NCBI GenBank assembly: GCA_030431695.1
Contig: JAUIIU010000005.1
Location: 1-64,000 of the forward strand
DNA: 64,000 nucleotides
Direction of reading: 5' to 3'
Source of the DNA: Bacteroidia bacterium
GTDB taxonomy: Bacteria > Bacteroidota > Bacteroidia > Flavobacteriales > Flavobacteriaceae
This document shows positions 2,473-62,470 of the stretch, one piece after another. A program made the position numbers and the translations under genes. Position 1 is the first letter of the stretch. Every line of letters starts with the position of its first letter. The notes under the pieces are model-generated. The model worked only from the letters and a program-made list of their open reading frames with translations, was not told where the DNA came from and searched no databases.

Positions 2473-2482
2473 AGTATAATTT

Positions 2483-3355: not shown

Positions 3356-3358
3356 ACT

Positions 3359-5354
<1,996 letters not shown>

Positions 5355-5401
5355 TACCGTAAAACTATGGCAATAATTTCACAATACAAACCGCAAAAGA
5401 A

Positions 5402-5416
5402 ACTATAACGTTTTCG
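5402..5416 (-). promoter_or_regulatory. Putative LacI-family operator upstream of pfkA
   Basis: The 15-mer ACTATAACGTTTTCG (plus strand) lies 48 bases before the pfkA ATG. The identical 15-mer occurs at 14437-14451 before the lacI-type gene, in the same orientation relative to the downstream gene. Its AACGTT centre has dyad symmetry, as in many LacI-family operators. The regulator assignment is inference. Confidence 0.45.
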
Positions 5417-5477
5417 GTTGACATGTTTCTGAAAAAATGAACGAAAATTCCTCAAAATCACCGCCTAAATGCTAAAT

Positions 5478-5501
5478 ACCCGCTGGAAAACACCAACGGG
5501 T
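5478..5501 (-). terminator. Hairpin ending the amylase operon
   Basis: ACCCGCTGG and CCAACGGGT pair with one G-U to form a nine-base stem around AAAACA. It lies just beyond the stop of the last amylase gene and before the pfkA promoter region. The following T-run is poor (TATTTAGC on the minus strand), so termination may be partial. Confidence 0.5.
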
Positions 5502-5522
5502 TCACAATTGACTATAGTAAAT

Positions 5523-6959: not shown

Positions 6960-6960
6960 A

Positions 6961-8652: not shown

Positions 8653-8664
8653 AGTAAATTCGAT

Positions 8665-13140: not shown

Positions 13141-13144
13141 ATAG

Positions 13145-13173
13145 TAAAATTAGAGTTATTACTATTTCGACAA
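13145..13173 (-). promoter_or_regulatory. Probable promoter of the maltose operon
   Basis: On the minus strand TTG (13173-13171) is followed after 18 bases by TAATTTTA (13152-13145), close to the Bacteroidota TTG ... TAnnTTTG pattern. It ends only a few bases before the permease ATG at 13140, so the leader would be very short or absent. Confidence 0.4.
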
Positions 13174-13262
13174 GCGATGAACTTATCAAAACCGATTGTA
13201 TAGGAAGTAAAAATCAGGTTTTGAAAGGCGCGGTTGTAAATATAGGTATTTTTTTGAACGGA

Positions 13263-46608: not shown

Positions 46609-46952
46609 CATAAAAACCCACAGAAGCTGCGCCTTTTGTCACCCTGAACTCGATTCAGGGTCTAAAGGATTACAGTAAACTGTGATCCCATTCTGGGTAT
46701 CCCAGGCAAGCATAAAAACCCACAGAAGCTGCGCTTCCTGTGTTATGAATCAAATCGTATTTCGGAAGTCAGGATTACAGTGAACTGTGATCCCATTCAG
46801 GTAATCCCGGGCAAGCATAAAAACCCACAGAAGCTGCGCTTCCTGTGTTATGTATCAAATCGTATTTCGGAAGTCAGGATTACAGTGAACTGTGATCCCA
46901 TTTTAGATATCCCGGGCAAGCATAAAAACCCACAGAAGCTGCGCTTCCTGTG
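46609..46952. repeat. Tandem array of a 105-bp hairpin-bearing unit
   Basis: Units begin with CATAAAAACCCACAGAAGCT at 46609, 46711, 46816 and 46921 (spacings 102, 105, 105). Units two to four carry a stem CACAGAAGC/GCTTCCTGTG (46721-46742, 46826-46847, 46931-46952) with one bulge. On the minus strand it is followed by GGTTTTTATG, like a terminator. Three units carry a 22-bp near-palindrome with half GGATTACAGT (46667, 46772, 46877). Unit one instead contains ACCCTGAA/TTCAGGGT (46641-46661). The fourth unit is partial. Confidence 0.85.
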
Positions 46953-47010
46953 TTTATTATTTCCATCCGCTCGTTGAAGCAAGCTTCATGAGCTACTGGA
47001 AATAATAAAC
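46952..47010. repeat. Long near-perfect hairpin of 59 bases
   Basis: GTTTATTATTTCCA (46952-46965) pairs perfectly with TGGAAATAATAAAC (46997-47010). Inside, GCTC pairs with GAGC and TGAAGC (46975-46980) with GCTTCA (46983-46988). Its right arm merges with the tRNA-Ser terminator. Confidence 0.75.
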
Positions 47011-47031
47011 CCGCAACTTTCGTTGCGGGTT
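47008..47031 (-). terminator. Terminator of tRNA-Ser
   Basis: AACCCGCAAC (47008-47017) and GTTGCGGGTT (47022-47031) form a perfect ten-base stem with a four-base loop. On the minus strand it follows the tRNA by eight bases and continues TATTATTTCC. T-runs flank both sides, so it could work in both directions. Confidence 0.8.
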
Positions 47032-47039
47032 TTCTTTTG

Positions 47040-47124
47040 CGGAGGAAGAGGGATTCGAACCCCCGGAGGTGTTACCCTCAACAGTTTTCAAGACTGCCGC
47101 AATCGACCACTCTGCCATTCCTCC
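47040..47124 (-). tRNA. tRNA-Ser (anticodon UGA)
   Basis: The 85-nt RNA starts GGAGGAATGG and ends with the pairing TTCCTCC plus discriminator G; CCA is not encoded. The anticodon loop CTTGAAA gives anticodon UGA (plus-strand TCA at 47088-47090). A long variable arm (GTTGAGGGTAACACCTC) and the T-loop GGTTCGAATCC are those of a class II serine tRNA. Confidence 0.95.
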
Positions 47125-47450: not shown

Positions 47451-48278
47451 TTGAACAAAACAACCCATAAGATCTACCTGGCTACGATGGCATCTGTTGT
47501 CGTGGTCGTGACCATTTACCTGGCCTATACCGGCTACTCGTATTACCAAACACCCCTCGAAGAACGCTTCTATCACCCCAGGCACGATTGGTTCAAACCC
47601 AGTGGAGCATTTGGTCATGGGTTGGGAATCATTGGGACTTTACTCATACTAATCGGTGTGAGTCTCTACATAGCTAGAAAGCGATATAATTTCCTGGGTA
47701 AATTAATCCGACTAAAATATTTATTGGAATTCCATATTTTTCTATGTACCCTGGGCCCCATTATGGTACTTTTTCACACAGCCTTTAAATTTGGCGGAAT
47801 CGTTTCCGTAGCTTTCTGGAGTATGGTTGCTGTTGTCTTGAGCGGTGTAATCGGTCGGTTCATCTATATACAGATCCCACGAACTATCGAAGGTCGGCAA
47901 CTAAGTCTTCAGGAAGTAAAAGGCATGAAAACAGACCTCTCCTCTACCTTGTACGATCAATATCAACTTGACGACGACACTATCGAGATCTTTGTGCAGT
48001 TCACGCAATTTGAAGAACAGGGAACGCAAAAGATATCATCTTCGAGATTAAAACAAGCGTTGAAGAAAAGTAATATCCCAATCGACAAAAGAAAGGATGT
48101 CCTTAAACTGTTGAAGAATGAACGTACACTGAGCAGGCGAATCGCCCGCCTGCAGACCATGCAAAAACTCTTCAAATACTGGCATGTAGCCAATTTACCC
48201 TTTGCCCTAATCATGCTCGTTATCGTACTTATTCATATCGGAGTTACTCTGGCTTTCGGATATAAATGGATCTTTTGA
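47451..48278 (+). CDS. Membrane protein with five buried histidines, probable b-type cytochrome
   Basis: The 275-residue protein (TTG start) has about five to six membrane helices: residues 9-29, 52-74, 92-112, 117-140 and 246-270. Histidines lie in or beside them: His56, His95, His109, His245 and His262. Pairs on facing helices would suit two hemes b. A hydrophilic segment of about 100 residues (142-243) is cytosolic and charged. I do not recognise an exact family; ferric-reductase-like or cytochrome b561-like proteins come to mind. It overlaps the Fe-S flavoprotein gene by 13 bases, so the two probably form an inner-membrane complex between NAD(P)H or quinone and the periplasmic cytochromes. 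Confidence 0.65.
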   Translation: MNKTTHKIYLATMASVVVVVTIYLAYTGYSYYQTPLEERFYHPRHDWFKPSGAFGHGLGIIGTLLILIGVSLYIARKRYNFLGKLIRLKYLLEFHIFLCTLGPIMVLFHTAFKFGGIVSVAFWSMVAVVLSGVIGRFIYIQIPRTIEGRQLSLQEVKGMKTDLSSTLYDQYQLDDDTIEIFVQFTQFEEQGTQKISSSRLKQALKKSNIPIDKRKDVLKLLKNERTLSRRIARLQTMQKLFKYWHVANLPFALIMLVIVLIHIGVTLAFGYKWIF

Positions 48279-49615
48279 TGGAAGTGATCATTGAACAAAT
48301 CGTCGTCTATGGGCTTGTTTTTATATTTTGTGGGATCGTACTGCTGATCTATCTTCGGAAACACAAAAAGAAGACCAGGGAAACAGAGAAAAAGGTAGCA
48401 ATTGCTAAGGAAGAAGGCCTTTTCGAACCTGTTTCACTGCATCCGTACATCGACCTGAACGTGTGTATAGGAAGTGCCGCCTGTGTATCGGCCTGTCCGG
48501 AGAAAGATATTATCGGGATCGCCGATGGCAAAGCCACCCTTATAAATTCGTCAAACTGCGTAGGACACGGAGCCTGTTTTCACTCTTGCCCCGTTGAAGC
48601 CATCTCCCTTAGGATGGGAACAGAAAAACGGGGGGTAGACCTGCCACATGTCAACCAGAACTTCGAGACAAACGTGCGCGGAATATACATTGCAGGTGAA
48701 CTTGGTGGAATGGGACTCATTCGAAATAGTGTGGAGCAGGGCCAACAGGCCATAGACAGTATTGTAAAAAGCAAAAAGCCAAATAATCAAGGTGTCCTTG
48801 ATGTTATTATAATTGGGGCCGGACCGGCCGGAATCTCGGCCACGCTAGCCTGTAAGAAGCATAAACTCAAAAGCGTGACTCTTGAGCAGGATTCTCTTGG
48901 CGGTACGGTCTACACTTTCCCAAGGAGTAAAATTGTTATGACATCGCCTATGAACCTTCCGTTATTTGGAAAGGTCAAACTGTACGATACAAGTAAGGAC
49001 GAATTACTTCAACTATGGACAAGAGTCATCCATGATCACGAAATTGAAATCAAGGAACAGCACAAAGTCGAAAATATAGTACCTCAGAGTGATGATACCT
49101 TCAAAGTAGTTGCTGCAAATGGCGAGGAATTCATAGGAAATAACGTCCTGATTGCCATCGGAAGGAGAGGTAGCCCGAGAAAGTTGAATATTCCGGGTGA
49201 GGAATCTACCAAGGTTGCATATCGCCTGCTGGAACCGGAACGTATTTCGGGTAAGGAGGTTGTCGTTGTTGGCGGTGGTGATTCAGCAATAGAAGCAGCA
49301 CTTATGCTAATGGAGTTGAATAACGTTAGGCAGGTTGTGAGAACGGACACACTTACGCGCTGCAAACCAAAAAATCGAGAGAAAATATCCAAAGCTGCAG
49401 ACGAGGGAAAAGTAACTATGATGTTTTCAAGTAATCTTATATCTATCAGTGAAACGCACTGCCTTATCAAAACCGAGGGTGAAGATGAGGCACTGGAGGT
49501 AAGGAATGACCTGGTGTATATTTTCGCAGGTGGTATCATGCCAACCGCCTTCCTTGAAAAACCAGGTATAAAAATCACCAAGCGATTTGGTTACATTATG
49601 AAAAAACATGATTAA
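48266..49615 (+). CDS. Membrane-anchored FAD/NAD(P) oxidoreductase with two ferredoxin motifs
   Basis: The 449-residue protein has one N-terminal membrane helix (about 11-30), a two-cluster ferredoxin domain (60-115) and a thioredoxin-reductase-like flavin domain. The FAD motif is IIGAGPAGISA (182-192) and the NAD(P) motif VVVGGGDSAIEAA (333-345). The ferredoxin motifs are CIGSAACVSACP (Cys67, 73, 77) and CVGHGACFHSCP (Cys98, 104, 108), with Ser or His where the second cluster cysteine is normal. No CxxC redox disulfide is seen in the flavin part. It probably passes electrons between NAD(P)H and the b-type partner encoded just upstream. Confidence 0.85.
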   Translation: MDLLMEVIIEQIVVYGLVFIFCGIVLLIYLRKHKKKTRETEKKVAIAKEEGLFEPVSLHPYIDLNVCIGSAACVSACPEKDIIGIADGKATLINSSNCVGHGACFHSCPVEAISLRMGTEKRGVDLPHVNQNFETNVRGIYIAGELGGMGLIRNSVEQGQQAIDSIVKSKKPNNQGVLDVIIIGAGPAGISATLACKKHKLKSVTLEQDSLGGTVYTFPRSKIVMTSPMNLPLFGKVKLYDTSKDELLQLWTRVIHDHEIEIKEQHKVENIVPQSDDTFKVVAANGEEFIGNNVLIAIGRRGSPRKLNIPGEESTKVAYRLLEPERISGKEVVVVGGGDSAIEAALMLMELNNVRQVVRTDTLTRCKPKNREKISKAADEGKVTMMFSSNLISISETHCLIKTEGEDEALEVRNDLVYIFAGGIMPTAFLEKPGIKITKRFGYIMKKHD

Positions 49616-49711
49616 ATTGGGTAGGGTAATTCCGGATTTACCTGTTATACAAACGTAAGCGGATAGCATGAATCGCAAAGTTTGTTAGGATAAATCGGTA
49701 AAACGTATGAT

Positions 49712-51547
49712 TTGACGCACCGATTCTGTTATATGGCGATCCTAATGATTCTGTCCACCATGAGTGGTTACGGACAGATATCACCTGGTGATCTTTCCGC
49801 TGCACACGCCAACCTTGAAGGAATGAGTAATTGCACACAATGTCATGATATAGGAAAGAAGGTATCCAATACCAAATGCCTGGATTGTCATACGGAGATA
49901 CGAACTCTAATTGGTAATAACCAGGGTTACCATGCAAACTCAAGCGTTAGGAGTAAGGATTGTTTTGAATGTCACAGTGATCACCACGGACGCAAATTCG
50001 ACATGGTGAGATTTAACCACGATACTTTTAATCATGCACTAACAGGTTATGACCTGGAAGGTAAACACCGACAGGTGGATTGTCGCGAATGCCATAAGGC
50101 AGATAATATTGCCGATAATGAGATTCGCAGACGGACCGGGACCTTCCTCGGACTGGACAATGCCTGTCTCTCCTGTCATGACGATTTTCACCAGGGAACA
50201 CTTTCGAACGATTGCCTGAGTTGCCATACCATGAATGGATTTACACCTGTCAGTAACTTCGATCATGATAATACCAATTACCCCCTCAGGGGAGAACACC
50301 GAAACCTCGAATGTGCCGAATGCCATAAGGAAACCACTCGAAACGGCAGGGAATTCAAACAATTTACTGGCATGGCATTCAACGACTGTAAAGCCTGTCA
50401 CAGTGATCCTCATAACGGACAGCTGCCCGGGCAATGTAATCAGTGTCATTCAGAAAGTTCATTTTCAAATTTTTCAGGAAGGGGAAGATTCAATCATAAC
50501 ACAACAGAGTTCTCTTTGAACGGGGCCCATCGGTCCATAGATTGTTTTTCCTGCCACGACCGTAGTTCAAACCCGCTGAATGTATTCCAGGACAATTTAG
50601 CCATGGAAGAAAATAACTGCATTGCCTGCCATGAAGATCAGCATGAAGGTAAATACGGTACGGACTGTGCGAAATGTCACCAGGAAACCAGCTTCCTGGC
50701 TTTGAAGGATATGGATTTCTTCGATCATTCCATTACAGATTATCCGCTTACCGGACAGCATATGGAAGTTAATTGTACCGAATGTCATGTGGACCGCTTT
50801 TCCACTCCAATTGATTTTTCCCGCTGTAGCAACTGTCATGATGATTATCACAGGGGCGATTTTACGGAGAATGGGGTATCACCGGACTGCGTGGAATGTC
50901 ATTCTCTGCAAGAGGGTTTTGGCTACAGTATGTTTACTCTGGAGCAACATCAGCTATCAAACTTTCCCCTTGAAGGTGCTCACACCGCAACTCCGTGTTT
51001 CTCATGCCACGTGAGTGAAGAGGACGACAGATGGAATTTCAGAAATATTGGAAACAACTGTGTAGATTGTCATAATGATCTGCACCAGGGATATATCAGT
51101 GCTGAATTCTATCCTGAACAGGATTGTGCTGCCTGCCACAATAATGATTCCTGGGCAGTGGTTAATTTTGATCATAATCGTACCGACTGGCCATTGGATG
51201 GACGACATAGTGAAGTTGCATGTTCTGCCTGTCATTTTGAATATGGCGAAAACGAGCAACTTATTTTGCAGAAATTCACTAACTTAGATACGAACTGTAC
51301 TGCATGTCATGAGAATGTCCATGGTGAGTCGTTTGCCATAGAAGGTGTAACCGACTGCAAACGATGCCATGTAACCACAAGTTGGATGCCGGAATTATTC
51401 GACCACAGTACAACTGCCTTCCCTCTGGAAGGTAAACATGCCGAGGTGGCATGTGCAGCTTGTCATGAGATCATTGATAATAACGGTGAGAGTACCGTAC
51501 TATATAAATTGAACAAACTGGAATGTATCGATTGCCACTTACAATAG
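49712..51547 (+). CDS. Secreted multiheme c-type cytochrome, 23 CxxCH motifs
   Basis: The 611-residue protein (TTG start; an ATG seven codons on at 49733 is possible) has a signal peptide ending SGYGQ and 23 CxxCH heme-binding motifs spread over the whole chain. Many occur in triplets with FDH or FNH about 15 residues before the next cysteine and HxEVxCxxCH-type phrases (KHAEVACAACH, RHSEVACSACH, QHMEVNCTECH), as in cytochrome c3/c7-like repeats. Without a lipobox it should be periplasmic or secreted. It begins 96 bases after the flavoprotein gene and its end overlaps the next cytochrome gene by 25 bases. It probably acts as an electron wire. Confidence 0.92.
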   Translation: MTHRFCYMAILMILSTMSGYGQISPGDLSAAHANLEGMSNCTQCHDIGKKVSNTKCLDCHTEIRTLIGNNQGYHANSSVRSKDCFECHSDHHGRKFDMVRFNHDTFNHALTGYDLEGKHRQVDCRECHKADNIADNEIRRRTGTFLGLDNACLSCHDDFHQGTLSNDCLSCHTMNGFTPVSNFDHDNTNYPLRGEHRNLECAECHKETTRNGREFKQFTGMAFNDCKACHSDPHNGQLPGQCNQCHSESSFSNFSGRGRFNHNTTEFSLNGAHRSIDCFSCHDRSSNPLNVFQDNLAMEENNCIACHEDQHEGKYGTDCAKCHQETSFLALKDMDFFDHSITDYPLTGQHMEVNCTECHVDRFSTPIDFSRCSNCHDDYHRGDFTENGVSPDCVECHSLQEGFGYSMFTLEQHQLSNFPLEGAHTATPCFSCHVSEEDDRWNFRNIGNNCVDCHNDLHQGYISAEFYPEQDCAACHNNDSWAVVNFDHNRTDWPLDGRHSEVACSACHFEYGENEQLILQKFTNLDTNCTACHENVHGESFAIEGVTDCKRCHVTTSWMPELFDHSTTAFPLEGKHAEVACAACHEIIDNNGESTVLYKLNKLECIDCHLQ

Positions 51548-52962
51548 TGCTCATTCTTTCTTTCGGAATGATGTTAGGGCAGTCCCCCCATGGGGAGGAC
51601 CTGAAGATCGATTGTGCCCAGTGCCATAACCCCAATGGCTGGTCAATTGAATACGAGACCCTAAAGTTCGATCACAGTACAACAGACTTCGCCCTCGAAG
51701 GTAGCCATGCAACAACGGATTGTACCTCCTGCCATTCGGACCTGACCTTTAATAACGCCCAGACCGATTGTATATCCTGCCACCTGGATGTTCACAACCA
51801 AACAGTAGGTAATGATTGTGTGCGATGCCATAACTCCGACAGCTGGCTGGTATTCAATATTCCGGAACTTCATGAGCAAAATGGATTTCCATTGATCGGT
51901 GCCCATAACAACCTAGGATGTGTAGAATGTCATAACAGTAGTGCCACTACCCTATCATTTGTCCCCATGGGAAACGAATGTATACAGTGCCACAGGGATG
52001 ACTATATGGCTACAACAAATCCAAATCATGCACTTTCCGGATTCTCAACAGATTGCCTGGAGTGTCATAACCCACTGGGCTTCGATTGGGATTCACAGGC
52101 GATAAACCATGATTTCTTCCCGCTTACGGGAGGTCACGATATACAGGATTGCAGTGCTTGTCATGATGTGAGTAATTTCTCTAATATTTCGGCCGATTGT
52201 TTCGCATGTCATTCTGATGATTATATGGCCACCACAGATCCAAACCATACGGCTGCAGGTTTTCCTACCGATTGTGCAGCCTGTCACTCAACCAATCCCG
52301 GATGGATGCCGGCTGTTGTGAATCACGACTTCTTCCCACTTACTCTTGGTCATAATATTCAGGATTGCACGGCTTGTCATATAAATGGAAATTTCAGTAA
52401 TACTCCAACCGATTGCTTTGCCTGTCACGACGATGATTATTCGGCTACAACAAACCCCAACCACCAGGCTGCAAATTTTCCGACAGATTGTGTAGTTTGT
52501 CATACCACCAACCCAGGATGGGTGCCAGCAGTGCTCAATCACGACTTCTTCCCACTTACGCTTGGACACGACATTCAGGATTGTACGCAATGTCATATCA
52601 ACAATAATTATACGACAACACCGACTGATTGCGTGGAATGCCACCTGAACGATTTCAATGCGACCACGAATCCAAATCATTCGGCGGCGCAGTTCCCAAC
52701 AGACTGTGTTGTTTGTCACACAACCAATCCGGGATGGATACCTGCCACATTTAACCACGACGGAATGTATTTCCCGATTTACAGCGGAAAACATGAAGGC
52801 GAGTGGAATCAATGTATCGATTGTCATATTAATGCTAACAACTATTCGATTTTTACCTGTGTTACCTGCCATGAGAAGAACGATATGAACGACGAACACG
52901 ATGAGGTTCCAGGCTACATTTATGAAAGTAACGCATGTTTCGCATGCCACCCTAACCCTTAA
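51523..52962 (+). CDS. Secreted multiheme c-type cytochrome, 19 CxxCH motifs
   Basis: The 479-residue protein begins inside the 3' end of the previous gene (ATG at 51523) with a signal peptide (LPLTIVLILSFGMMLGQ) and has 19 CxxCH motifs. Residues about 165-410 are tandem modules of 72-73 residues with three hemes each, built on NPNHxAAxFPTDC, NHDFFPLTLGH and IQDCTACH. The modular build suggests recent internal duplication, which would lengthen the heme wire. The barrel gene starts 20 bases later. It probably works with the 23-heme protein. Confidence 0.92.
   Translation: MYRLPLTIVLILSFGMMLGQSPHGEDLKIDCAQCHNPNGWSIEYETLKFDHSTTDFALEGSHATTDCTSCHSDLTFNNAQTDCISCHLDVHNQTVGNDCVRCHNSDSWLVFNIPELHEQNGFPLIGAHNNLGCVECHNSSATTLSFVPMGNECIQCHRDDYMATTNPNHALSGFSTDCLECHNPLGFDWDSQAINHDFFPLTGGHDIQDCSACHDVSNFSNISADCFACHSDDYMATTDPNHTAAGFPTDCAACHSTNPGWMPAVVNHDFFPLTLGHNIQDCTACHINGNFSNTPTDCFACHDDDYSATTNPNHQAANFPTDCVVCHTTNPGWVPAVLNHDFFPLTLGHDIQDCTQCHINNNYTTTPTDCVECHLNDFNATTNPNHSAAQFPTDCVVCHTTNPGWIPATFNHDGMYFPIYSGKHEGEWNQCIDCHINANNYSIFTCVTCHEKNDMNDEHDEVPGYIYESNACFACHPNP
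52021..52740 (+). repeat. Coding tandem repeat, 216-219 bp unit
   Basis: The proline codon of the NPNH or DPNH phrase recurs at 52021, 52240, 52456 and 52672, giving spacings of 219, 216 and 216 bases. Each full unit encodes three CxxCH motifs. The repeat stays in frame and diverges mainly at third codon positions. Confidence 0.85.
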
Positions 52963-52982
52963 CGAAAATTATTAACAACCCG

Positions 52983-54575
52983 ATGAGTCTAAAACGTGCT
53001 ACAATAGTATTGGCAGTGTTGCTGCATTCCGTGATCTTTGCACAGGATCGTGTACTAGAAGGTACGGTTTCATTTGTAACATCTTCGAATGTCTATGTGA
53101 AATTCGAAAACACCGAAGATATTAAGTTGGGAGAAGTGTTAAGATTTAAGGGTGCTGATTGTTTAAAAGTATCGGACAAATCGTCTACTTCTGTGGTTTG
53201 TACAATTTTGGAAGGATGTGAAATAAAGAACGGAGACACTGTGTCATACATAGTGGCCGCCGGGAATGAAACTACACAACCCACATCCATTACCGAACCG
53301 GAGGATGAAGGATTACCGCCTGAGACCAATGTCCCTTCGGAAGCATCCAAGAGTTCCTCAATATATCAGGAGAATATCCGTGGGCGGGTTTCATTAGCCA
53401 GTTACAATACCTTTTCCGACGTAAGAGATGATAGAAGTATCTTCAGGACAAGGTTCTCCCTTGACGCGAACCACATCGGAGATTCCAAGGTATCCGTACA
53501 GTCCTATCTGGTTTACAGGAATTTCAATACGTCCTCCAGTGATTATGATGGAAGGACAAGTATATTCAATGTTTATAATCTGAATGTGCGCTATGATGCC
53601 ACGCCGGATTTCTCTATTACTGCGGGCAGGAAGATCAACCCAAAAGCAAGCAGTATAGGTGCTGTGGACGGATTACAGCTTGAAAAATACTTTGGGAATT
53701 TTTTCGCAGGGTTAATGGGAGGATTCAGACCTGATTTTGAGAACTTCGGATTCAATGCCGATCTGCTTCAATACGGAGGCTACGTTGGAATTGCTACGGA
53801 TTCAAAGGATTTTTTCAGCGAGACCACCCTTGGAGCCATGGAGCAAACAAATTCAGGATCAACCGATAGAAGATATATTTTCTTCCAGCACATGAGCACC
53901 ATAGCTTCAGATCTTACTCTGTTCAGTAGTGCCGAGCTTGATATCTTCGGAAATACAGGAAATGAAACAAGGCTCACCAACCTGTATCTTTCGGCTCGTT
54001 ACCGTTTCAGCAGGGCCGTGAACGCAATGATCTCCTATGATTCGAGAAAGGCGATCATTTATTACGAAACATTTCAGACAGATATTGAAAGGCTACTGGA
54101 TGAAGATCTCGCAAGACAGGGTCTTAGGTTCAGGTTCAATGTAAGACCGGCGAAACAGCTCTGGATGGGATTCAGTTACAGCAAACGTTTTCAGAATGAC
54201 AGCGAAAACAAGTCGGACAACGTTTACGGTTACGCAACCTTATCTAAAATTCCGGGTATCGGCGGGCGATTCAATGTTTCATACAATATGAACTCTTCCA
54301 ATTACCTGAGCAGTAACATTTATTCGGCGCGTTACAGCAGGGAATTCTTCGAGAACAAACTCAATACGGATGTCTATTACAGAAGAGCCAACTACGAGTA
54401 TGAGAATAATTTCAGTGACCTCTCGTTGAATTTTTACGGGGCCACGCTGTCATACCGGATCTCAAGAACCTGGATGCTCAGTGTTTCCGGGGAGTATTCG
54501 CAAAGTGATCCTGAAAACAGTTTCAGGTTTTACACCAGGTTGACAAAAAGATTTTATAGTAAGAAGAAAAAATAA
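52983..54575 (+). CDS. Outer-membrane beta-barrel-like protein with N-terminal periplasmic domain
   Basis: The 530-residue protein has a signal peptide (SLKRATIVLAVLLHSVIFAQ), a small beta domain of about 80 residues with three cysteines, a proline- and glutamate-rich linker and then about 400 residues of alternating strands. Examples are FNVYNLNVRYDATPDFSITAGRK and LYLSARYRFSRAVNAMISYD, ending in FRFYTRLTKRFYSKKKK. That is the pattern of an outer-membrane barrel. Its place between two multiheme cytochromes and an OB-fold lipoprotein suggests a porin sheath such as MtrB in other phyla, although sequence similarity to MtrB is not evident. Confidence 0.75.
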   Translation: MSLKRATIVLAVLLHSVIFAQDRVLEGTVSFVTSSNVYVKFENTEDIKLGEVLRFKGADCLKVSDKSSTSVVCTILEGCEIKNGDTVSYIVAAGNETTQPTSITEPEDEGLPPETNVPSEASKSSSIYQENIRGRVSLASYNTFSDVRDDRSIFRTRFSLDANHIGDSKVSVQSYLVYRNFNTSSSDYDGRTSIFNVYNLNVRYDATPDFSITAGRKINPKASSIGAVDGLQLEKYFGNFFAGLMGGFRPDFENFGFNADLLQYGGYVGIATDSKDFFSETTLGAMEQTNSGSTDRRYIFFQHMSTIASDLTLFSSAELDIFGNTGNETRLTNLYLSARYRFSRAVNAMISYDSRKAIIYYETFQTDIERLLDEDLARQGLRFRFNVRPAKQLWMGFSYSKRFQNDSENKSDNVYGYATLSKIPGIGGRFNVSYNMNSSNYLSSNIYSARYSREFFENKLNTDVYYRRANYEYENNFSDLSLNFYGATLSYRISRTWMLSVSGEYSQSDPENSFRFYTRLTKRFYSKKKK

Positions 54576-54577
54576 TT

Positions 54578-55384
54578 ATGAAGAAGATTATCGTTTTTAT
54601 AAATATAACAGCTCTCCTGCTGGTATCTTGTAATAATGGTCCAAAGGTGATCACTGCACAAAGCTCGAATGATGGCGGGAGTCCTGCGCCCAGTGGGATC
54701 TTTTCGGATGTAAGTAATGAACCTGATCCCGAATTTCAGCAGAATACCGGATCGTTTACAGATGACCTTCACAAAGTGATGATCAAAGAAATACTTCCGG
54801 CAACCAAGTATTCTTACCTCAAAGTAACTGAGGGTGGTGAAGATTATTGGATCGCGGTCAGGAAACAGGATATTGAAATGGGCGGTACATATTTTTACCG
54901 AAATGGATTGTTGAAGACAAATTTCGAAAGTAAGGAGTACAACCGCACCTTCGAACGTATTTTCCTTGTGTCAAGCCTGGTTCCTGAAAATCATGGAAAC
55001 AATTCCGGATCACTGAAGGCAGATTTTTCAACCCAACCCGAAAACACATCCGTGAAACAAGACATTCCTACACATACCGAGGAAGTTGTACAGCACAAGG
55101 GATCGGTCAAGATCTCCGAAATCGTGGCCAATCCAAAAGCTTATGAAGGCAAGACAGTGCAGCTTACCGGGAAATGTGTTAAGATAAACCCGAACATCAT
55201 GCAACGTAACTGGATCCATTTACAGGATGGAAGTAAGGATGATTTTGATCTGGTAGTGACATCAAACACCTTCGTTCCGGAAGGGCAAGTGATTACTATA
55301 AAAGCTAAAGTAGTCTTGAATAAAGATTTCGGTGCAGGCTATCGATACGACCTGATTCTTGAAGAAGGCGTTGTTTTGGAATAA
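54578..55384 (+). CDS. Lipoprotein with C-terminal OB-fold domain
   Basis: The 268-residue protein has a lipobox LLVSC (Cys18). An N-terminal region (about 60-130) with YSYLKVTEGGEDYWIAVRKQDI forms one beta domain. After a linker, residues about 180-268 are an OB-like domain with YEGKTVQLTGKCVKINPNIMQ, NWIHLQDGSKDDFDLVVTS and GQVITIKAKVVLNKDFGAGY. This domain is common in small secreted proteins encoded beside multiheme cytochromes. It follows the barrel gene by two bases and is probably an accessory of the cytochrome complex. Its ligand is unknown. Confidence 0.75.
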   Translation: MKKIIVFINITALLLVSCNNGPKVITAQSSNDGGSPAPSGIFSDVSNEPDPEFQQNTGSFTDDLHKVMIKEILPATKYSYLKVTEGGEDYWIAVRKQDIEMGGTYFYRNGLLKTNFESKEYNRTFERIFLVSSLVPENHGNNSGSLKADFSTQPENTSVKQDIPTHTEEVVQHKGSVKISEIVANPKAYEGKTVQLTGKCVKINPNIMQRNWIHLQDGSKDDFDLVVTSNTFVPEGQVITIKAKVVLNKDFGAGYRYDLILEEGVVLE

Positions 55385-55390
55385 TTCCTA

Positions 55391-58300
55391 TCAAGAGATC
55401 ATTTTGAATTTCCTCTTCCGAAGATAGGCAATCACACTTATCACGATCACACAACTCACCACGATATAAACCCAATTCGGGATTGGAACCGGATCACCCG
55501 TTGCATAGGAGTGCAATCCGGATAAGTAATAATTAACCCCATAGTAGGTCATGATCACAGATGCCAGTCCGAATATGGTTGCGAGGTTGTATGCATATAC
55601 CCCACGCAGCTTTGGGATTAGCCTCATATGCAGAATGAAGGCATAGACTAGGATAGTTACAAGCGCCCAGGTTTCCTTGGCATCCCAACCCCAGTATCTT
55701 CCCCAGGATTCGTTAGCCCAAACGCCACCGAGGTATGTTCCTACACTCATCATGAATAGCCCTCCTATCAATGTTAACTCACTGATGTAGGACATCTCCG
55801 TTACAATGCGTTTTACGCGCTGCTTATTCCGTTCAGTCAGGAAGATCATCAGGATGAGATTTATCAGTCCGATGATTGCACCCAACATCAGGAAGCCGTA
55901 GCTACCTGCTTCCAGGGATACATGTATGGTCAGCCAGTAAGAGCGCAAAACCGGAACCAGGGGAGTTATTTCAGGATCTAGAAAGCTGAGGGTGGAAACA
56001 AAAAGAATGGTTCCCGCCAGTACCATGGTAGCCGCCAAGCCGCCAAAGGATTTACGTGTAAAGAGGAGTCCTGCCAGCGTTGATGTCCACGCGATGTAGA
56101 TCATGGATTCGTAACCATTACTCCAGGGGGCACGGCCGGAAATATACCATCGCATACCTAGTCCGACGGTATGTAAGGTAAAACCAAGAAGTATAATAAA
56201 GAATAGTATCCAATATACACGTTTGAGGTTGAGATTCGGTTTGAATACCGACAAGAACAGGAAGAATAGCAACACCACCCCCAGCAGCATATAAATTCCT
56301 GCCAGGCGGTTGAAGATGTTCATATTATTTAGCCGAATCTCGGTATTGATCTTCGCTTCTGAAGGGATAACCGTAGCGCCTCGTTGTTGCTGAAAGTTTT
56401 TAAGCTCATCGAGCAGGTGTCCCGCATGCTGAAAGTTTCCCGTATTTGTAGCCTGTTTGAGCGCCGTACCGTAGGCGTTGAAAAACCTGTCGGCCACCGT
56501 ATTGTGATTATGTCCATCGTCCGCTGAGTGGTTATGACTCCCAAAGGCCTGCCAGGTATTGTTCGGATCGTTGGGAATAGGTACGATCTTCAGTAGACTA
56601 CCCGAAAATAGCATACTTACGATATTCAAGCGCTCGTCAATCTTTATGAGTTCTTTGGCATAGACCCCACGGTCCACAGGATCCAGACCATACACACGCC
56701 TTACCTCATCCTTTAGCTTGTATTCACCGGTCTCGTGAAAGAAATCCTTGTACGACGCATACGAATCCTGTACGCCGATCAAAGCAAGAACATCCTTATG
56801 CTTCCCGAGTTTAATGATCTTAACGTCATACCAATCCTGCTTATTCACGAACATTCCAAGTACCACCTGGTCTGCGGAAAGTCCTTCCCAGCTTTCTTTC
56901 CTGGCTATCTTTCGCATTACTTCCCTTGAAAGGGTGTGCATGGGTTTCATTCGGCCTTTGAAATCCTGGACAACTAGTTTGCTGAATATCTCGGCATGCT
57001 CTTCAGAAACCGCTTTTTGCTTGTAATTCTGTCCATAACCAATAGCACCACAAAGCATAAAGAACAACAGTACGAAAGTTCCACTCCTGGATCTTAATTT
57101 CTTTATTTTCTGAATAAGTGAATTGAATCGTGTGTTTTTGCTGAAAAAGGTCAGGATCATGCCCAGGGTCAGCAGCGCATATCCAATATAGGAAATCAAC
57201 GTACCCCAGAAATCGTGATTCACACTTAAATAGGTTCCCTTTTCATCACGGTCGAAGGAAGACTGGAAGAATCGATATCCCCTGTAATTCAGGATATTGT
57301 TCATAAAGATTCTGTAGTCCTTATTCACATTCTCGGATGGATCGAGCAGAGTCACCTCGCTGGCATATGAAGAAGCACTGTTCGTTCCCGGGTATCGTTC
57401 CATGATGAAATCGTTCAATCGTATGCTAAAAGGCACTTGCTTCGGCTTGGAGCCATACGATATCTGCAGGTCAAGCTCATCAAATCGTAGAAAAGCCGGG
57501 GTTCCCGGACGACCTTTATTCCCGTAAACATAAGTAGACTTGGTCTTATCACCCACCGTAACTTCCAATTGCAGGGCTGAAATACTTTCATTCCTGACCT
57601 TTGGGTCATCACTTGAGATCGCTATTGATGCATTCGGGTTGAATTCAGAAAAAACAAAATTATTTCTGCCATCAGAATAGAGCGACCGCAGAAGCAGTGG
57701 TTTAAAATCATTATTAAACTGAAGTGTATCCCTGGTCTGGGTCGCCATAACCGTCTGAGTGAGGGAACGATGGTAGTTCAGGCTTAGTTCCTCACCAAGG
57801 TACCTGAGGTTAACTGCCCCAGCTATAGGTTCTTCCTTGAAATTGAAGATCAGTGCTCCAATCCTCCTCGAGCTTCCCTTCTCAATTAAATACTCTTCTC
57901 TTCCCGCCGCTCCACCTATCACTACTTTTACAATAGCGTTGCCATTTATCGGTTGAGGTATTATTTGCTGTTTGGGATTCGGAATGAAATCCTTCAAACG
58001 GATCTCGAGCAAGGACTCGTCTATTAGATACGATTCATCAAACCGGTTCGTACCGATGCTAGCAAAACGTACCGGTTCATCAAAAGAATATTCTGTTCCG
58101 TCTTTTTGTACATCAAAAATAAGATAGGGTTCGAACGAAAGGAATTCGGAGGTTTGATCTTGTTCACGTATATGCATCACTCCCTCAAATCCATAATACC
58201 TTGTTATTGCTGCACCCAAAAGGATCACGACAATGGCCGCATGAAACATCAACAGCGCCCATTTACGCATTTGGACCATACGATATTTGATGATATTGTA

Positions 58301-58513
58301 TATTACTGTAATTGAGAACATAAGTAATAATAGCTCAAACCACCACGTCTTGTATATGAGCTTTTGTGCCGCACTGGTCCCAAAGTCATTCTCAATGAAG
58401 GTGGCAATTCCAATTGAAGCCGCAAACAAAATGAAATATAGGCCCGCCGCCCGGGTATTGACAAGATATGTCAAAGTCTTCTGTATCTTGGGAAGAAAGT
58501 CTTTCATCGTCAT
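55391..58513 (-). CDS. ccsBA: CcsB-CcsA fusion, cytochrome c maturation (system II)
   Basis: The 1040-residue membrane protein joins a ResB/CcsB-like N-terminal half (four helices with a large periplasmic domain, about 1-470) to a CcsA half (about 715-1040). The heme-handling WWD segment WGRYWGWDAKETWAL starts at residue 937. Flanking histidines are seen in YWLTIHVSLEAGSYG, GFTLHTVGLG and GLHSYATG (about His1001). It exports heme and attaches it to CxxCH motifs of c-type cytochromes. The gene is convergent with the cytochrome cluster, six bases from the OB-lipoprotein stop, which fits a dedicated or main maturation role. Confidence 0.95.
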   Translation of the reverse strand: MTMKDFLPKIQKTLTYLVNTRAAGLYFILFAASIGIATFIENDFGTSAAQKLIYKTWWFELLLLMFSITVIYNIIKYRMVQMRKWALLMFHAAIVVILLGAAITRYYGFEGVMHIREQDQTSEFLSFEPYLIFDVQKDGTEYSFDEPVRFASIGTNRFDESYLIDESLLEIRLKDFIPNPKQQIIPQPINGNAIVKVVIGGAAGREEYLIEKGSSRRIGALIFNFKEEPIAGAVNLRYLGEELSLNYHRSLTQTVMATQTRDTLQFNNDFKPLLLRSLYSDGRNNFVFSEFNPNASIAISSDDPKVRNESISALQLEVTVGDKTKSTYVYGNKGRPGTPAFLRFDELDLQISYGSKPKQVPFSIRLNDFIMERYPGTNSASSYASEVTLLDPSENVNKDYRIFMNNILNYRGYRFFQSSFDRDEKGTYLSVNHDFWGTLISYIGYALLTLGMILTFFSKNTRFNSLIQKIKKLRSRSGTFVLLFFMLCGAIGYGQNYKQKAVSEEHAEIFSKLVVQDFKGRMKPMHTLSREVMRKIARKESWEGLSADQVVLGMFVNKQDWYDVKIIKLGKHKDVLALIGVQDSYASYKDFFHETGEYKLKDEVRRVYGLDPVDRGVYAKELIKIDERLNIVSMLFSGSLLKIVPIPNDPNNTWQAFGSHNHSADDGHNHNTVADRFFNAYGTALKQATNTGNFQHAGHLLDELKNFQQQRGATVIPSEAKINTEIRLNNMNIFNRLAGIYMLLGVVLLFFLFLSVFKPNLNLKRVYWILFFIILLGFTLHTVGLGMRWYISGRAPWSNGYESMIYIAWTSTLAGLLFTRKSFGGLAATMVLAGTILFVSTLSFLDPEITPLVPVLRSYWLTIHVSLEAGSYGFLMLGAIIGLINLILMIFLTERNKQRVKRIVTEMSYISELTLIGGLFMMSVGTYLGGVWANESWGRYWGWDAKETWALVTILVYAFILHMRLIPKLRGVYAYNLATIFGLASVIMTYYGVNYYLSGLHSYATGDPVPIPNWVYIVVSCVIVISVIAYLRKRKFKMIS

Positions 58514-59148: not shown

Positions 59149-60150
59149 TCACTGTTTCACAAATCGCCTGGAAGCTACTACTTGTCCGCCGTTAATCAGG
59201 CTTAGCACATAAGTGCCGGAAGCGAGTTGTCCGATCATTACTTCGGAAGCCCCCACTTCATAAAGATCATCGGAAAGACGCCTTCCAAGCATATTTGTGA
59301 TCTGAACCCGGTAATCACTCAACTGAACCCCACCCAGCCGGATCACCTCCGATGCCGGATTGGGATAGATACTGAAGCCTTCCAATTCCTCATTATCAAC
59401 CGACAAAGGCGCCGGTGGCAACGGGATCATGGCTCCCCCAAGTGGTGAAACAGCATACAAACCAAATGCAGGCCCGTTCGAATTTTGCGATGGATCAAAG
59501 AATCCCGAAGCTATTATAGTGACAGCCACACCTTGTGCTCCAAGTGATTCCAGCGCGGCGATATAGGCGGCGATTCCCTGGGTTCCATCCGCACTCCTCA
59601 GTTGAATGGTATAGTTATCTACCGGGTATTCGAAGTAACCTTCGTATTCGGTATAGGAGAGATCGTCGATCACCTGCCCGAGGCCTACCTCTGTTTCGTA
59701 TACATCAACGGTCGGCGCATCGGTGGAACCGTGGTGCACCAGCACATCCACCATGGTCGGACTACTGGCCGCTTCCCTGCCCATATCGAAGATGTGAAGA
59801 TCGAAAGGAGGCGCAGGATTATAACCTGTTGCACTTTCAATCCCGTCTGCAATTATAACATAAGTCTCACCATCTTCCAGGGTAAAGGTTTCGGTATAGA
59901 ACGCGTCAAGTGCACTGGCACTGTTTTCTTCGGCTATACCTACAATAAGAGGGACATCTGCGGGAAGATCGGTAAACGGGGATGCGGTTCGGAAACTGAC
60001 ATCATCCAGCGTAAGGCTGCCGTTGATATAGACATCCACCATATCGGCAATGGCGTCTGCACTGTTATGCACTACCTGAACACGGGCAGTCTGCGCGCTT
60101 GCTTGTAGAATGAGACATCCTAATATTACAGAGAAGTAAAGTTTTTTCAT
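59149..60150 (-). CDS. DUF4397-domain secreted protein with T9SS sorting tail
   Basis: The ATG at 60150 gives 333 residues and the signal peptide MKKLYFSVILGCLILQASAQ; 25 codons before it in the frame are not used. RVQVVHNSADAIADMVDVYI and PTMVDVLVHHGSTDAPTVDVY are two halves of a DUF4397 beta domain (about 20-230). The last 75 residues (FSIYPNPASEVIRL to TYVLSLINGGQVVASRRFVK) form a type A C-terminal domain that directs export by the type IX secretion system and surface attachment. Function is unknown; an extracellular binding role is likely. Confidence 0.87.
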   Translation of the reverse strand: MKKLYFSVILGCLILQASAQTARVQVVHNSADAIADMVDVYINGSLTLDDVSFRTASPFTDLPADVPLIVGIAEENSASALDAFYTETFTLEDGETYVIIADGIESATGYNPAPPFDLHIFDMGREAASSPTMVDVLVHHGSTDAPTVDVYETEVGLGQVIDDLSYTEYEGYFEYPVDNYTIQLRSADGTQGIAAYIAALESLGAQGVAVTIIASGFFDPSQNSNGPAFGLYAVSPLGGAMIPLPPAPLSVDNEELEGFSIYPNPASEVIRLGGVQLSDYRVQITNMLGRRLSDDLYEVGASEVMIGQLASGTYVLSLINGGQVVASRRFVKQ

Positions 60151-60254: not shown

Positions 60255-60884
60255 CTATTCGTAAAATGAAACCGATCCGTCGCTGATGTCATACATCCCA
60301 CCGACTATCTTGATCTCACCGTCGTTCTCCATATCGTGAAGGATCACACTTTGGTTCCGGATATTCTCGATGGCCATCTTTACATTTTCCTTCGATACCT
60401 CATCGACGAATTCAAGATTTGAGGAATTCCGAAGAGAGGCGTCCTCAGGTTCTTTCACGGCAAAGACCGCAGGTTCGATCTTGTTGATCAATGCAGTAAG
60501 GTTACCCAGACGTGCGTGATCACAGGCACCCTTAACGGCTCCACAACTGGTATGACCTAGAACCAAAAGTAGTTTGGTTCCTGCGAGTTTACAGGCAAAC
60601 TCCATGCTTCCCAAAATGTCCTGGTTAACAAAGTTACCCGCAATCCTAATGCTGAATATATCCCCTAACCCCTGGTCGAAGATCAGTTCTGCCGATACCC
60701 TGGAGTCTATACAACTGAGGATGGTGGCAAAAGGGAATTGCCCGTCGGCAGTTTCGTTCACCTGTTGCAGGAGGTTCCGATTGGCCTTTAGGTTCTGCTG
60801 AAACCGCAGGTTACCTTCTTTTAAAAATTCTAACGCCTTATCAGGAGTCATCGTCGCTTGTGTTTCTTTTGTATGTGCTTTCAT
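60255..60884 (-). CDS. can: Beta-class carbonic anhydrase
   Basis: The 209-residue cytosolic zinc enzyme interconverts carbon dioxide and bicarbonate. Zinc ligands are Cys58 and Asp60 in CIDSRVSAE and His111 and Cys114 in GHTSCGAVKGA. The flanking IRIAGNFVNQDILGSMEFA is conserved. It lies eight bases after the SulP transporter gene in one transcript ended by a strong terminator. The pair should import bicarbonate and convert it to carbon dioxide, or keep a bicarbonate pool for carboxylases. Confidence 0.95.
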   Translation of the reverse strand: MKAHTKETQATMTPDKALEFLKEGNLRFQQNLKANRNLLQQVNETADGQFPFATILSCIDSRVSAELIFDQGLGDIFSIRIAGNFVNQDILGSMEFACKLAGTKLLLVLGHTSCGAVKGACDHARLGNLTALINKIEPAVFAVKEPEDASLRNSSNLEFVDEVSKENVKMAIENIRNQSVILHDMENDGEIKIVGGMYDISDGSVSFYE

Positions 60885-60892
60885 AATTTCTG

Positions 60893-62470
60893 TTATGCGG
60901 TTTTTGGTCTTAGTTTAAAAAAGTCTATATAGCTGGGTGGATTCTCCACTTCGCCTCGTTCAGATATGATCCTGATAGTAATATTTCGGTTTCTGGCCTT
61001 TTCGGAAAAGTCCTCGAGTATCTCAACAATATCATTATCAAGGTATCGCGTTTTCCGAACATCGAGTTCAAGATAGGTATCCTCTGCCAGATTATCAAGT
61101 TCCTTTAAAATGGCTCCCTTGTTGAAAAAAGTAACTTCTTCGGCTAATGTCATCCTCACCTTTGGCACCCCATTACTGCGATCCTCCATATGAAGAAAAT
61201 GCGAGTTTTGGTAACTCTTCAGAAGAATGACGATCACACCTACTCCCAGTCCAAGTCCGATGCCAACCAGAAGATCGGTAAAGATGATACCACCTACTGT
61301 GACGGTGAACGGAACGAATTGCTTCCAACCCATATGGTACATTTTCCTGAATAGTGACGGCTTTGCGAGCTTATAACCTACTACTAGCAGGATTGCTGCC
61401 AGAACCGACAAGGGTATCCTGTTCAGCAGGGTAGGGATCAGAATGACCGAACTCAGCAGGAAAAAACCATGAATAATAGCCGAAGCCTTGGTTTTTCCAC
61501 CGGACTGTACATTGGCCGAACTTCTCACGATCACCTGGGTTATAGGTAATCCCCCGATCAGTCCTGAAATGATATTCCCCGTTCCCTGGGCCAGCAGCTC
61601 ACGATTTGTTGGGGTAACTCGCTTTTCAGGATCCAGTTTATCGGTCGCTTCCACACAGAGCAAAGTTTCCAGGCTGGCTACCAACGCAATGGTAAAAGCC
61701 GTTAACCAAATCTGCGGATTGGTGATCTGGGCGAAATTCGGGAAGGTAAACTGCGCCAGGAAGGAACTCGCGTCTTCCGGGGCAGGTACGTTCACCATGT
61801 TTTCCGAAGCGATCGCCATACTGCTTCCACCTGTTAAGCTGAAGAAAACGATTCCGAAGATAACGGCTACCAGGGGTCCCTGGATCAATTTAAAGATCCT
61901 GGAACGCTTCGCCAGGACCTTTTCCCACAGGATAAGGATTCCAAGACCTACAACGGCCACGATTGTGGATCCCAGGCTGATATGGTTAACCGTATTGATT
62001 ATTTCTGAAAAAGTAGTCTCTCCGTCTACCTGGAAAAAGGCAAAATCACCTTCGGGATCTGCATCATATCCGAAGAAATGCGGAATTTGCTTAAGGATGA
62101 TGATGATCCCGATACCGGTTAGCATCCCTTTGATCACCGAGGATGGGAAATAATACCCGATAACACCTGCTTTCAGGATGCCGAAAACGATCTGTATGAT
62201 CCCTCCCAGCACAACGGCCAACAGGAAATTCTCAAAACCACCTAAAGTGGCAATAGCGGTGAGGACAATGGCTGCCAAACCTGCAGCCGGGCCACTGACA
62301 CCTATGGAAGAACCACTGATGAATCCAACAACGATCCCTCCAACAATACCAGCTATGAGCCCACTGAAAAGAGGCGCTCCACTGGCAAGGGCAATACCTA
62401 AACACAAAGGCAACGCCACAAAGAATACGACAATACTCGCGGGTAAGTCGCTTTTTAAATATTTGAACAT
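60893..62470 (-). CDS. SulP-family anion transporter with STAS domain, probable bicarbonate uptake
   Basis: The 525-residue protein has about 10-14 helices. Its start (LKSDLPASIVVFFVALPLCLGIALASGAP) and GPAAGLAAIVLTAIATLGG are typical of SulP, as is the mid-protein FTIALVASLETLLCVEATDKLDPEKR. A C-terminal STAS domain (about 440-520) follows with LELDVRKTRYLDNDIVEILE. SulP carriers move sulfate, bicarbonate or other anions. Linkage to a carbonic anhydrase gene eight bases downstream points to bicarbonate, as in cyanobacterial BicA. A hairpin (62486-62503) precedes the gene. Confidence 0.92.
   Translation of the reverse strand: MFKYLKSDLPASIVVFFVALPLCLGIALASGAPLFSGLIAGIVGGIVVGFISGSSIGVSGPAAGLAAIVLTAIATLGGFENFLLAVVLGGIIQIVFGILKAGVIGYYFPSSVIKGMLTGIGIIIILKQIPHFFGYDADPEGDFAFFQVDGETTFSEIINTVNHISLGSTIVAVVGLGILILWEKVLAKRSRIFKLIQGPLVAVIFGIVFFSLTGGSSMAIASENMVNVPAPEDASSFLAQFTFPNFAQITNPQIWLTAFTIALVASLETLLCVEATDKLDPEKRVTPTNRELLAQGTGNIISGLIGGLPITQVIVRSSANVQSGGKTKASAIIHGFFLLSSVILIPTLLNRIPLSVLAAILLVVGYKLAKPSLFRKMYHMGWKQFVPFTVTVGGIIFTDLLVGIGLGLGVGVIVILLKSYQNSHFLHMEDRSNGVPKVRMTLAEEVTFFNKGAILKELDNLAEDTYLELDVRKTRYLDNDIVEILEDFSEKARNRNITIRIISERGEVENPPSYIDFFKLRPKTA

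Follow-up and report, generated by a model that had tools for sequence, protein, structure and literature searches.

Among described systems for moving electrons across the outer membrane, the closest to the one considered here are Mtr and Pcc (MtrCAB of Shewanella, Pcc of Geobacter), in which a barrel and secreted multiheme cytochromes are encoded together and are presumed to form a wire through the membrane. These systems are fed from the quinone pool, and MtrB has 26 strands. Bacteroidota rank among the chief decomposers of organic matter in oceans, sediments and sewage works, and direct exchange of electrons with the environment is seldom attributed to them. The locus analysed lies in a flavobacterial genome (Bacteroidia bacterium, family Flavobacteriaceae, GCA_030431695.1; 2.98 Mb in 126 contigs), within positions 1 to 64,000 of contig JAUIIU010000005.1, a stretch referred to below as the window. 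Six co-directional genes at 47451-55384 encode a membrane protein called Tmb, an oxidoreductase with Fe-S clusters and flavin adenine dinucleotide (FAD), two secreted multiheme cytochromes (CytA and CytB), an outer-membrane beta-barrel and a lipoprotein; the gene for the cytochrome maturase CcsBA is convergent with them. The explanation that is favoured, with moderate confidence, is that this six-gene module is a trans-envelope electron conduit. Most likely it works like the porin-cytochrome systems but is built from non-homologous parts.

The likeness to Mtr and Pcc concerns the clustering of a barrel with secreted multiheme cytochromes, whereas the components differ: the barrel is unmatched by the MtrB_PioB model and is modelled with 22 strands, the cytochromes have 20 or 23 and 10 to 73 hemes, and the operon contains its own NAD(P)H-type dehydrogenase and probable b cytochrome. 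A 2014 survey of pcc clusters lists six phyla besides Geobacter, and from its main text the words Bacteroid- and Flavobacter- are absent (PMC4245776). A bioanode study reports such complexes in Ignavibacteria and others from searches with models of the Mtr, Omb and Ext barrels (PMC7399161), and in the accessible text of another paper Flavobacteriaceae are named only for a siderophore (PMC8446621). The Geobacter cluster extHIJKLMNOPQS likewise joins a porin-like protein, several multiheme cytochromes and a b cytochrome, together with a Rieske Fe-S protein (PMC5877670). In contrast, no rhodanese, Rieske protein or selenoprotein is seen among the six genes here. CytA matches the NCBIfam models ExtN (4e-13, 48.9 of 200 bits) and ExtO (5e-13, 48.6 of 200 bits) far below cut-off, and the ExtJ model reaches 13.7 bits against a cut-off of 52.5. 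Proteins with many CxxCH motifs match one another's models easily, and the hits to ExtN, ExtO, DmsE and HmcA were given no weight. Among open-licence papers in PubMed Central, with subscription journals and preprints outside the scope, no description of this gene set was found, nor any of a conduit route from NAD(P)H to the outer membrane in Bacteroidota.

Conservation of the module

The genes stand where an earlier sequence-only reading of the window had placed them. Neighbours overlap or sit 2-20 bases apart, save for 96 bases 5' of CytA, and the likely start of the oxidoreductase is a TGATG at 48278. That reading had proposed a search for the same gene order in other Bacteroidota, and the order is indeed found. 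A scan of named genomes gives 130 Tmb relatives, of which the best 80 were kept; with profiles built from the window proteins, the order tmb-fad-cytA-cytB-barrel-lipo, intervening genes allowed, is recognised in 37 of these best 80 of 130 loci. Of the other 43, 39 stop within 212 bases past the last recognised gene, where the contig or the fetched stretch ends, and four deviate in order or content (L040, L064, L087 and L093). The FAD gene is separated from CytA by ~2.4 kb in L061 and by ~4.6 kb in L102. Named Tmb relatives include that of Aureitalea sp. L0-47 (77% identity); plasmid pEMTOL02 of Emticicia carries all six genes with ccsBA in front, and in some relatives ccsBA is on the same strand as the operon.

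The module is abundant in the genus and patchy beyond it. In 99 near-relative genomes (the window's own and 98 relatives), Tmb occurs in 11: 7/7 in the genus, 2/53 in the rest of the family and 2/39 in the rest of the order, one of the last two copies being interrupted by a stop. In L020 (genome G083, 1436-11795) the operon is degraded, several of its frames being interrupted, so that decay of the module within a lineage is possible. A phylum-wide sample of 392 Bacteroidota genomes has Tmb in 44, the window's own included; weak matches account for three of these (E 4e-9, 6e-7 and 2e-11), and one hit has internal stops. Twenty further places were chosen from these 44 genomes. Tmb occurs with a 20- or 23-heme CytA and another multiheme gene in 18 of them, the FAD gene is present in 17 and the barrel in 16 (two low-scoring, at 21 and 34 bits); in the two places with weak hits, a short Tmb and a gene with 12 or 14 motifs are all that is found. 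Where present, the FAD gene adjoins tmb as in the window in four places and lies behind the cytochromes in 13. A separate search for the barrel in 197 genomes of the class finds it in two, that of the window and one more, in each case within the module. L029 has an additional barrel gene (11620-13227), convergent with the one in its operon.

A neighbourhood conserved across so many genomes, with the barrel in the class found only in the module, excludes chance adjacency in one genome. The module core is formed by Tmb, the FAD protein, CytA, CytB and the barrel. The genes thus form one conserved unit, and the view of the six genes plus CcsBA as a unit holds phylum-wide for this core, but not for the lipoprotein and CcsBA, which are not beside it in far members. 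The sequence-only reading did not recognise the set as a described system in Flavobacteriaceae; no description was found in open-licence papers either, but the set is not specific to that family and occurs across Bacteroidota.

The probable inner-membrane step

Tmb was first described as a five-His membrane protein, but the window copy has eight His, six of which are invariant among 10 near relatives, and the likely ligand positions number four. An alignment of 59 rows (56 Bacteroidota and 3 Proteobacteria) has His at positions 95, 109 and 262 in every row and at position 248 in 58/59. A distance of 14 residues separates 95 from 109 and likewise 248 from 262, all on hydrophobic helices, a pattern that we take to be that of a di-heme b cytochrome. 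Tmb is therefore likely to be an inner-membrane di-heme b cytochrome, with heme binding suggested by these positions, and positively charged loop residues would place His 95 and His 248 on the cytosolic side. About five helices and a long insert are indicated by hydropathy and by a medium-quality AlphaFold2 model. The last helix of many Tmb proteins resembles DUF4405 (PF14358), which matches 40 of the 59 members at E <= 0.1 (best 5.2e-6). A cytochrome b561 profile is matched by four of the 59, and Ferric_reduct (PF01794) has matches in 4 of 60 genomes searched. For the window's copy, DUF4405 is not listed by Pfam and no NCBIfam model matches at E <= 0.1.

One DUF4405 protein binds heme b in vitro, and its family is modelled like the MsrQ and PepSY cytochromes (PMC11334425). 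Tmb resembles this group in its four conserved His within a membrane protein, with Asn at one of them in the window. It differs in that DUF4405 is described there with six transmembrane helices, as against about five and a long insert, the match being short and mostly below cut-off, and in that the neighbours of Tmb are multiheme cytochromes.

The oxidoreductase conforms to its first description as an Fe-S/FAD/NAD(P) enzyme, with matches to Pyr_redox_3 (2.8e-40) and Fer4 in Pfam and to TrxR/YpdA-like proteins in NCBIfam. Its two Fe-S motifs are CxxSxxCxxxCP and CxxHxxCxxxCP. The second Cys of the second motif is replaced by His in all 85 readable rows (of 87) and in 17/17 further rows. In the first motif the corresponding residue is Ser in 82/85, while the 17 further rows have Cys (11), Ser (5) or Ala (1). 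These counts, and those for CytA below, include three genomes twice, from two collections (L018/L084, L021/L069 and L024/L027). CxxHxxC motifs are known from [3Fe-4S] ferredoxins.

The coupling of Tmb to NAD(P)H gains from a comparison outside the phylum. A plasmid search for Tmb gives 12 records, namely Emticicia (a full match) and 11 proteobacterial records at 22-24% identity. Three of the 11 were read (Alteromonas, Methylophaga and Acetobacter), and in all three the Tmb relative lies between a gene for a 2Fe-2S protein and a gene with 7 CxxCH motifs, with no barrel annotated beside Tmb. The Alteromonas 2Fe-2S protein, the sole copy scanned, is an FAD/NAD(P)H reductase of the glycine betaine monooxygenase reductase/NqrF kind, and its fold presumably differs from that of the TrxR/YpdA-like window protein. 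The start of the heptaheme cytochrome aligns to the start of CytA, non-heme residues included (PG-L--AH), with domain E values of 4e-15 and 2e-13 in a search of three sequences. Two types of reductase are thus joined to the same membrane protein and the same cytochrome start. This arrangement is regarded as the strongest indication of a link from NAD(P)H through Tmb to CytA, and it suggests that Tmb could be the NAD(P)H-linked inner-membrane step that feeds CytA.

The multiheme cytochromes

The counts of 23 and 19 CxxCH motifs first reported for the two cytochromes are reproduced by a six-frame stop-to-stop scan of the 64 kb window. No other frame has more than one motif, so these counts are not due to chance. 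Both proteins match c7/c3 models in Pfam and NCBIfam profile scans. CytA is nearly constant: 71 of 77 complete frames have 23 (62) or 20 (9) hemes, and in 18 further places the number is 20 (17) or 23 (1). The remaining six of the 77 frames, with 12, 12, 3, 9, 2 and 11 motifs, are taken as fragments or split frames or, for one in L051, as a different 12-heme gene. In L051 (7401-9019), a second, shorter b-cytochrome-like gene and then the 12-heme gene stand upstream of the main operon, and similar short pairs occur in L156 and L157. Among solved structures, CytA matches only NrfA-type chains (E 0.004 to 0.006); these matches were read as common CxxCH spacing and dismissed.

CytB, by contrast with the constant CytA, is elastic. 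The set comprises 59 genes, the window's and 58 complete ones, with the L020 fragment dropped and the three duplicated genomes counted twice. Heme counts of 13, 16, 19, 22, 25, 28, 31, 34, 37, 40, 42, 43, 46, 61, 64, 67 and 73 occur, and 58 of the 59 genes equal 1 modulo 3, that is, have the form 7+3n. The exception is L070, with 42 motifs and a single 55-residue gap at the site of the missing one. Motif spacings have a period of three: at lag 3, 65% agree to within one residue, as against 0 to 4% at lags 1, 2 and 4. From heme 2 to heme 7 they are 16/17, 16, 34, 19/20 and 25 in 58/58 genes of relatives, and past heme 7 they follow units of ~32-16-25. Length increases by 24.8 residues per heme (r 0.9997), and every counted CytB has at least one extra His per heme, as bis-His ligation needs. 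CytB therefore grows by triheme units. Within the genus alone the count is 16 (L021), 19 (the window and L024) or 22 (L022). In the further places (L138-L155), 18 of the 22 second multiheme genes beside CytA obey 7+3n over a range of 10 to 64; the exceptions have 38, 9, 9 and 8 motifs, the last of these genes being truncated at the edge of its contig. These counts leave out two genes, of 14 and 12 motifs in L156 and L157, which accompany the short Tmb. Tandem Repeats Finder detects no DNA repeat in the operon, from which it follows that the triheme units of the window's CytB have drifted apart at the DNA level.

The combination of a constant CytA and an elastic CytB may be read as a fixed periplasmic span with a variable reach. 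Long CytB proteins occur in Saprospiraceae, with 67 hemes in L091. A published survey attributes the proteins richest in heme motifs mainly to Saprospiraceae and proposes electron transfer or storage for them (PMC11495043). Motif counts are given there, and section 10 of that paper names no operon, barrel or b cytochrome; its heme-rich proteins probably include CytB.

The barrel, the lipoprotein and heme attachment

An AlphaFold2 model of the barrel, built on 48 rows, has a predicted local distance difference test score (pLDDT) of 81 and a predicted template modelling score (pTM) of 0.62. In it, a signal helix is followed by a small domain of six strands, a linker of low confidence and then 22 strands (residues 131-527), among which the stretch 357-377 is again of low confidence. 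The model was read as a list of strands, which does not give the closure of the barrel or the placement of the small domain; this domain might sit inside the pore. Foldseek returns ushers, porins and AlgE (best E 2.9e-11, template modelling score ~0.4). VIA-align gives Z 19.9 over 337 residues, at a root-mean-square deviation of 4.6, to the siderophore receptor PirA, a TonB-dependent receptor, and like values for BT1762-1763 and OccK7. The barrel-like nature proposed at the outset is thus borne out by both the 22-strand model after residue 130 and the matches to outer-membrane barrels, and a pore of 22 predicted strands could hold a cytochrome.

Homology to MtrB was rejected, as MtrB_PioB (PF11854) matches 0/48 barrels at E <= 0.01. 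PF11854 also has 0 matches in the host genome, a weak control given that 14 control genomes gave one sub-cut-off match, and MtrB is not among the best 50 structure matches listed by Foldseek and VIA-align, which excludes nothing. By sequence, the barrel has no relative among solved structures. In the window, Tmb, the barrel and the lipoprotein match no family above cut-off in Pfam or NCBIfam. The lipoprotein was first assigned an OB-fold, which is not sustained: Pfam gives a sub-cut-off GW hit only (E 0.024), and the visible lipobox Cys supports the lipoprotein part of the assignment alone. The naming of CcsBA is upheld by ResB and Cytochrom_C_asm in one chain (Pfam), the NCBIfam CcsB model scoring 172.1 bits against a cut-off of 187.6.

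CytA, CytB and the barrel begin with plain hydrophobic, signal-like sequences, as judged by eye and in relatives too. The sole type IX tail match in the window's contig stretch is at 59152-59370, and three long CytB proteins examined have no such tail. Exposure of the cytochromes on the cell surface would therefore need the barrel or another route.

Proposed electron path and alternatives

The favoured conduit would operate as follows. Cytosolic NAD(P)H would reduce the membrane-anchored FAD/Fe-S protein, and two b hemes in Tmb, held by 95/248 near the cytosol and by 109/262 near the periplasm, would carry the electrons through the inner membrane. The N-terminal hemes of CytA would dock on Tmb, and its fixed chain of 20 or 23 hemes would bridge the periplasm; CytB and the 22-strand barrel would then pass the electrons across the outer membrane. 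The lipoprotein would be an accessory envelope part, and CcsBA would attach the hemes. The preferred direction is outward, to an extracellular oxidant (a metal oxide, humics or another cell), as a redox valve. What stands of the initial electron-conduit reading is the conserved unit and the outer-membrane fold class of the barrel, which were computed, as were gene content, signal peptides, heme-motif counts and the conserved His pattern; from these we infer heme binding by Tmb, the docking order, barrel occupancy, surface exposure and the exit of electrons, their direction and their acceptor. In the data examined, neither of the two outcomes named beforehand as contrary is found: the barrel does not model as a non-porin, and the genes are not scattered and tied to an ordinary periplasmic reductase.

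Several observations weigh against the conduit. The window's Tmb is the sole row with Asn at 248, a codon that may reflect a mutation or an assembly error; His 245, nearby and conserved in 56/59 rows, could replace His 248 as ligand. The Tmb model is of medium confidence (pLDDT 81, pTM 0.61) and has no useful match among solved structures by fold, nor does the protein by sequence. Of nine Tmb members examined singly, seven list DUF4405, at best with 25.4 bits against a cut-off of 26.7 over ~22 residues. For nearly all members of the barrel family no MtrB or porin model matches, and all AlphaFold2 models are of single chains. CytA and CytB have no type IX tail, though the genome has 64 tail matches. 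The module is patchy in the family outside the genus, the lipoprotein profile matches in one of the 20 further places and not beside tmb, and CcsBA is recognised in 0/20. Finally, oxidation of NAD(P)H through the conduit alone would conserve no energy.

The absence of secretion tails would also suit periplasmic reductive detoxification or metal handling, in which CytA and CytB reduce a soluble oxidant (an oxyanion, Cu(II), Fe(III) or peroxide) entering through the barrel pore, with no export of electrons. Copper- or heavy-metal-resistance genes are present within 12 kb of Tmb in the three proteobacterial records read, with Met-rich proteins near the module in Alteromonas. Among 86 loci with other genes, RND-type efflux genes are recognised by eye in nine and P-type ATPase genes in six, one of them Pfam-confirmed. 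The Geobacter ext cluster affects the reduction of selenite and tellurite but not that of Fe(III) citrate (PMC5877670). Metal genes are nevertheless near a minority of loci, inspection by eye reveals none in the window over the 17 kb upstream, and a CytB of 10 to 73 hemes appears to exceed the need of a periplasmic carrier. Detoxification is thus judged unlikely, and a copper-linked role based on metal-gene neighbours was not adopted other than as part of this rival.

The same chain could run inward, from an outside or periplasmic donor (a partner cell, H2 via a periplasmic hydrogenase, or reduced humics) through Tmb to NAD(P)+, with inward charge aiding the membrane potential. The direction of charge movement would favour this, the Alteromonas Tmb module is one gene upstream of NiFe hydrogenase genes, and the host genome also encodes a NiFe hydrogenase, on contig C36 and thus away from the module (PF00374 above cut-off). 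The latter, however, adjoins NuoF/HoxU-like and hyp-type genes, as seen by eye, and is therefore probably cytosolic and NAD-linked, for which a conduit would be unneeded; neither of the remaining proteobacterial records read has a hydrogenase listed within 12 kb, and oxic marine habitats offer few donors below about -0.3 V. Inward flow is considered still less probable than detoxification. Storage, in which the long cytochromes would be mainly a capacitor buffering electrons in oxic/anoxic swings, has been put forward for proteins rich in heme motifs that come mostly from Saprospiraceae (PMC11495043), and heme number does vary freely here; the conserved barrel and the constant CytA are left unexplained, and this possibility is deemed very improbable.

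If the conduit reading is correct, about one-tenth of sampled Bacteroidota (44/392) would possess one, and views of anoxic carbon and metal turnover would change, with Tmb and the barrel usable as marker genes. CytB would then provide a natural length series of triheme wires, in which conduction could be related to heme number. More tentatively, the module may represent a separate, phylum-wide class of conduits, with an NAD(P)H-fed di-heme step, a constant CytA and a 7+3n CytB through a 22-strand barrel. Gain or loss of entire triheme units between constant ends would then set how far CytB extends, and the 73-heme version would be long enough to serve as a single-chain extracellular wire.

Features of the locus and its surroundings

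Table 1. Positions of the operon genes, of the variant Tmb codon and of the host's hydrogenase
Feature	Position	Strand	Length (aa)	Remarks
Tmb	47451..48278	+	275	likely inner-membrane di-heme b cytochrome; ~5 transmembrane helices; presumed ligands 95, 109, 248 (Asn here), 262
Tmb codon 248	48192..48194	+		AAT (Asn); His in 58/59 aligned rows
FeS/FAD/NAD(P) oxidoreductase	48266..49615	+	449	N-terminal membrane anchor; overlaps Tmb
CytA	49712..51547	+	611	23 CxxCH; secreted; start codon uncertain
CytB	51523..52962	+	479	19 CxxCH; secreted; 7 N-terminal hemes and four triheme units of ~72 residues
Outer-membrane beta-barrel	52983..54575	+	530	signal peptide, 6-strand domain (residues 23-91), linker, 22 strands (residues 131-527) in the model
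Lipoprotein	54578..55384	+	268	lipobox ...LLLVSC; conserved C-terminal end; weak GW match
CcsBA	55391..58513	-	1040	ResB and Cytochrom_C_asm; cytochrome c maturation; convergent, six bases from the lipoprotein gene
NiFe hydrogenase large subunit	L168 4733-9728 (own genome, contig C36)			beside NuoF/HoxU-like and hyp-type genes

No NrfA is encoded in the window, as first stated, and the whole genome gives one sub-cut-off match to PF02335. NrfA or another PF02335 reductase was dropped as a candidate; no search for other periplasmic reductases was made. The matching cytochrome gene, on contig C103, adjoins a gene for a 1029-aa Fe-S protein, and the two are presumably part of an alternative complex III. 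Flavinylation was also dropped as part of the system, since too few loci are concerned. Five loci, from four organisms, have ApbE-like genes on the upstream side of tmb at 0.6 to 1.7 kb (L018, L039, L058, L083 and L084; one Pfam-confirmed), and DUF3570-like genes are near in these five and in L065 (one confirmed), with a possible link to covalent-flavin electron transfer.

Upstream of tmb in the same-genus loci L022 and L024-L027 lie RND-type efflux genes and a small MHYCGD-type gene, accompanied in L025-L027 by P-type ATPase genes. In the window itself, a direct repeat of ~45 bases in two copies ~105 bases apart (46804-46955) and a terminator-like hairpin (47007-47032) are located near a tRNA-Ser gene (47039-47124). 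On the other side of the operon, a carbonic anhydrase-like gene adjoins a gene for a SulP-type transporter at 60255-62470, as recognised by eye from the translations.

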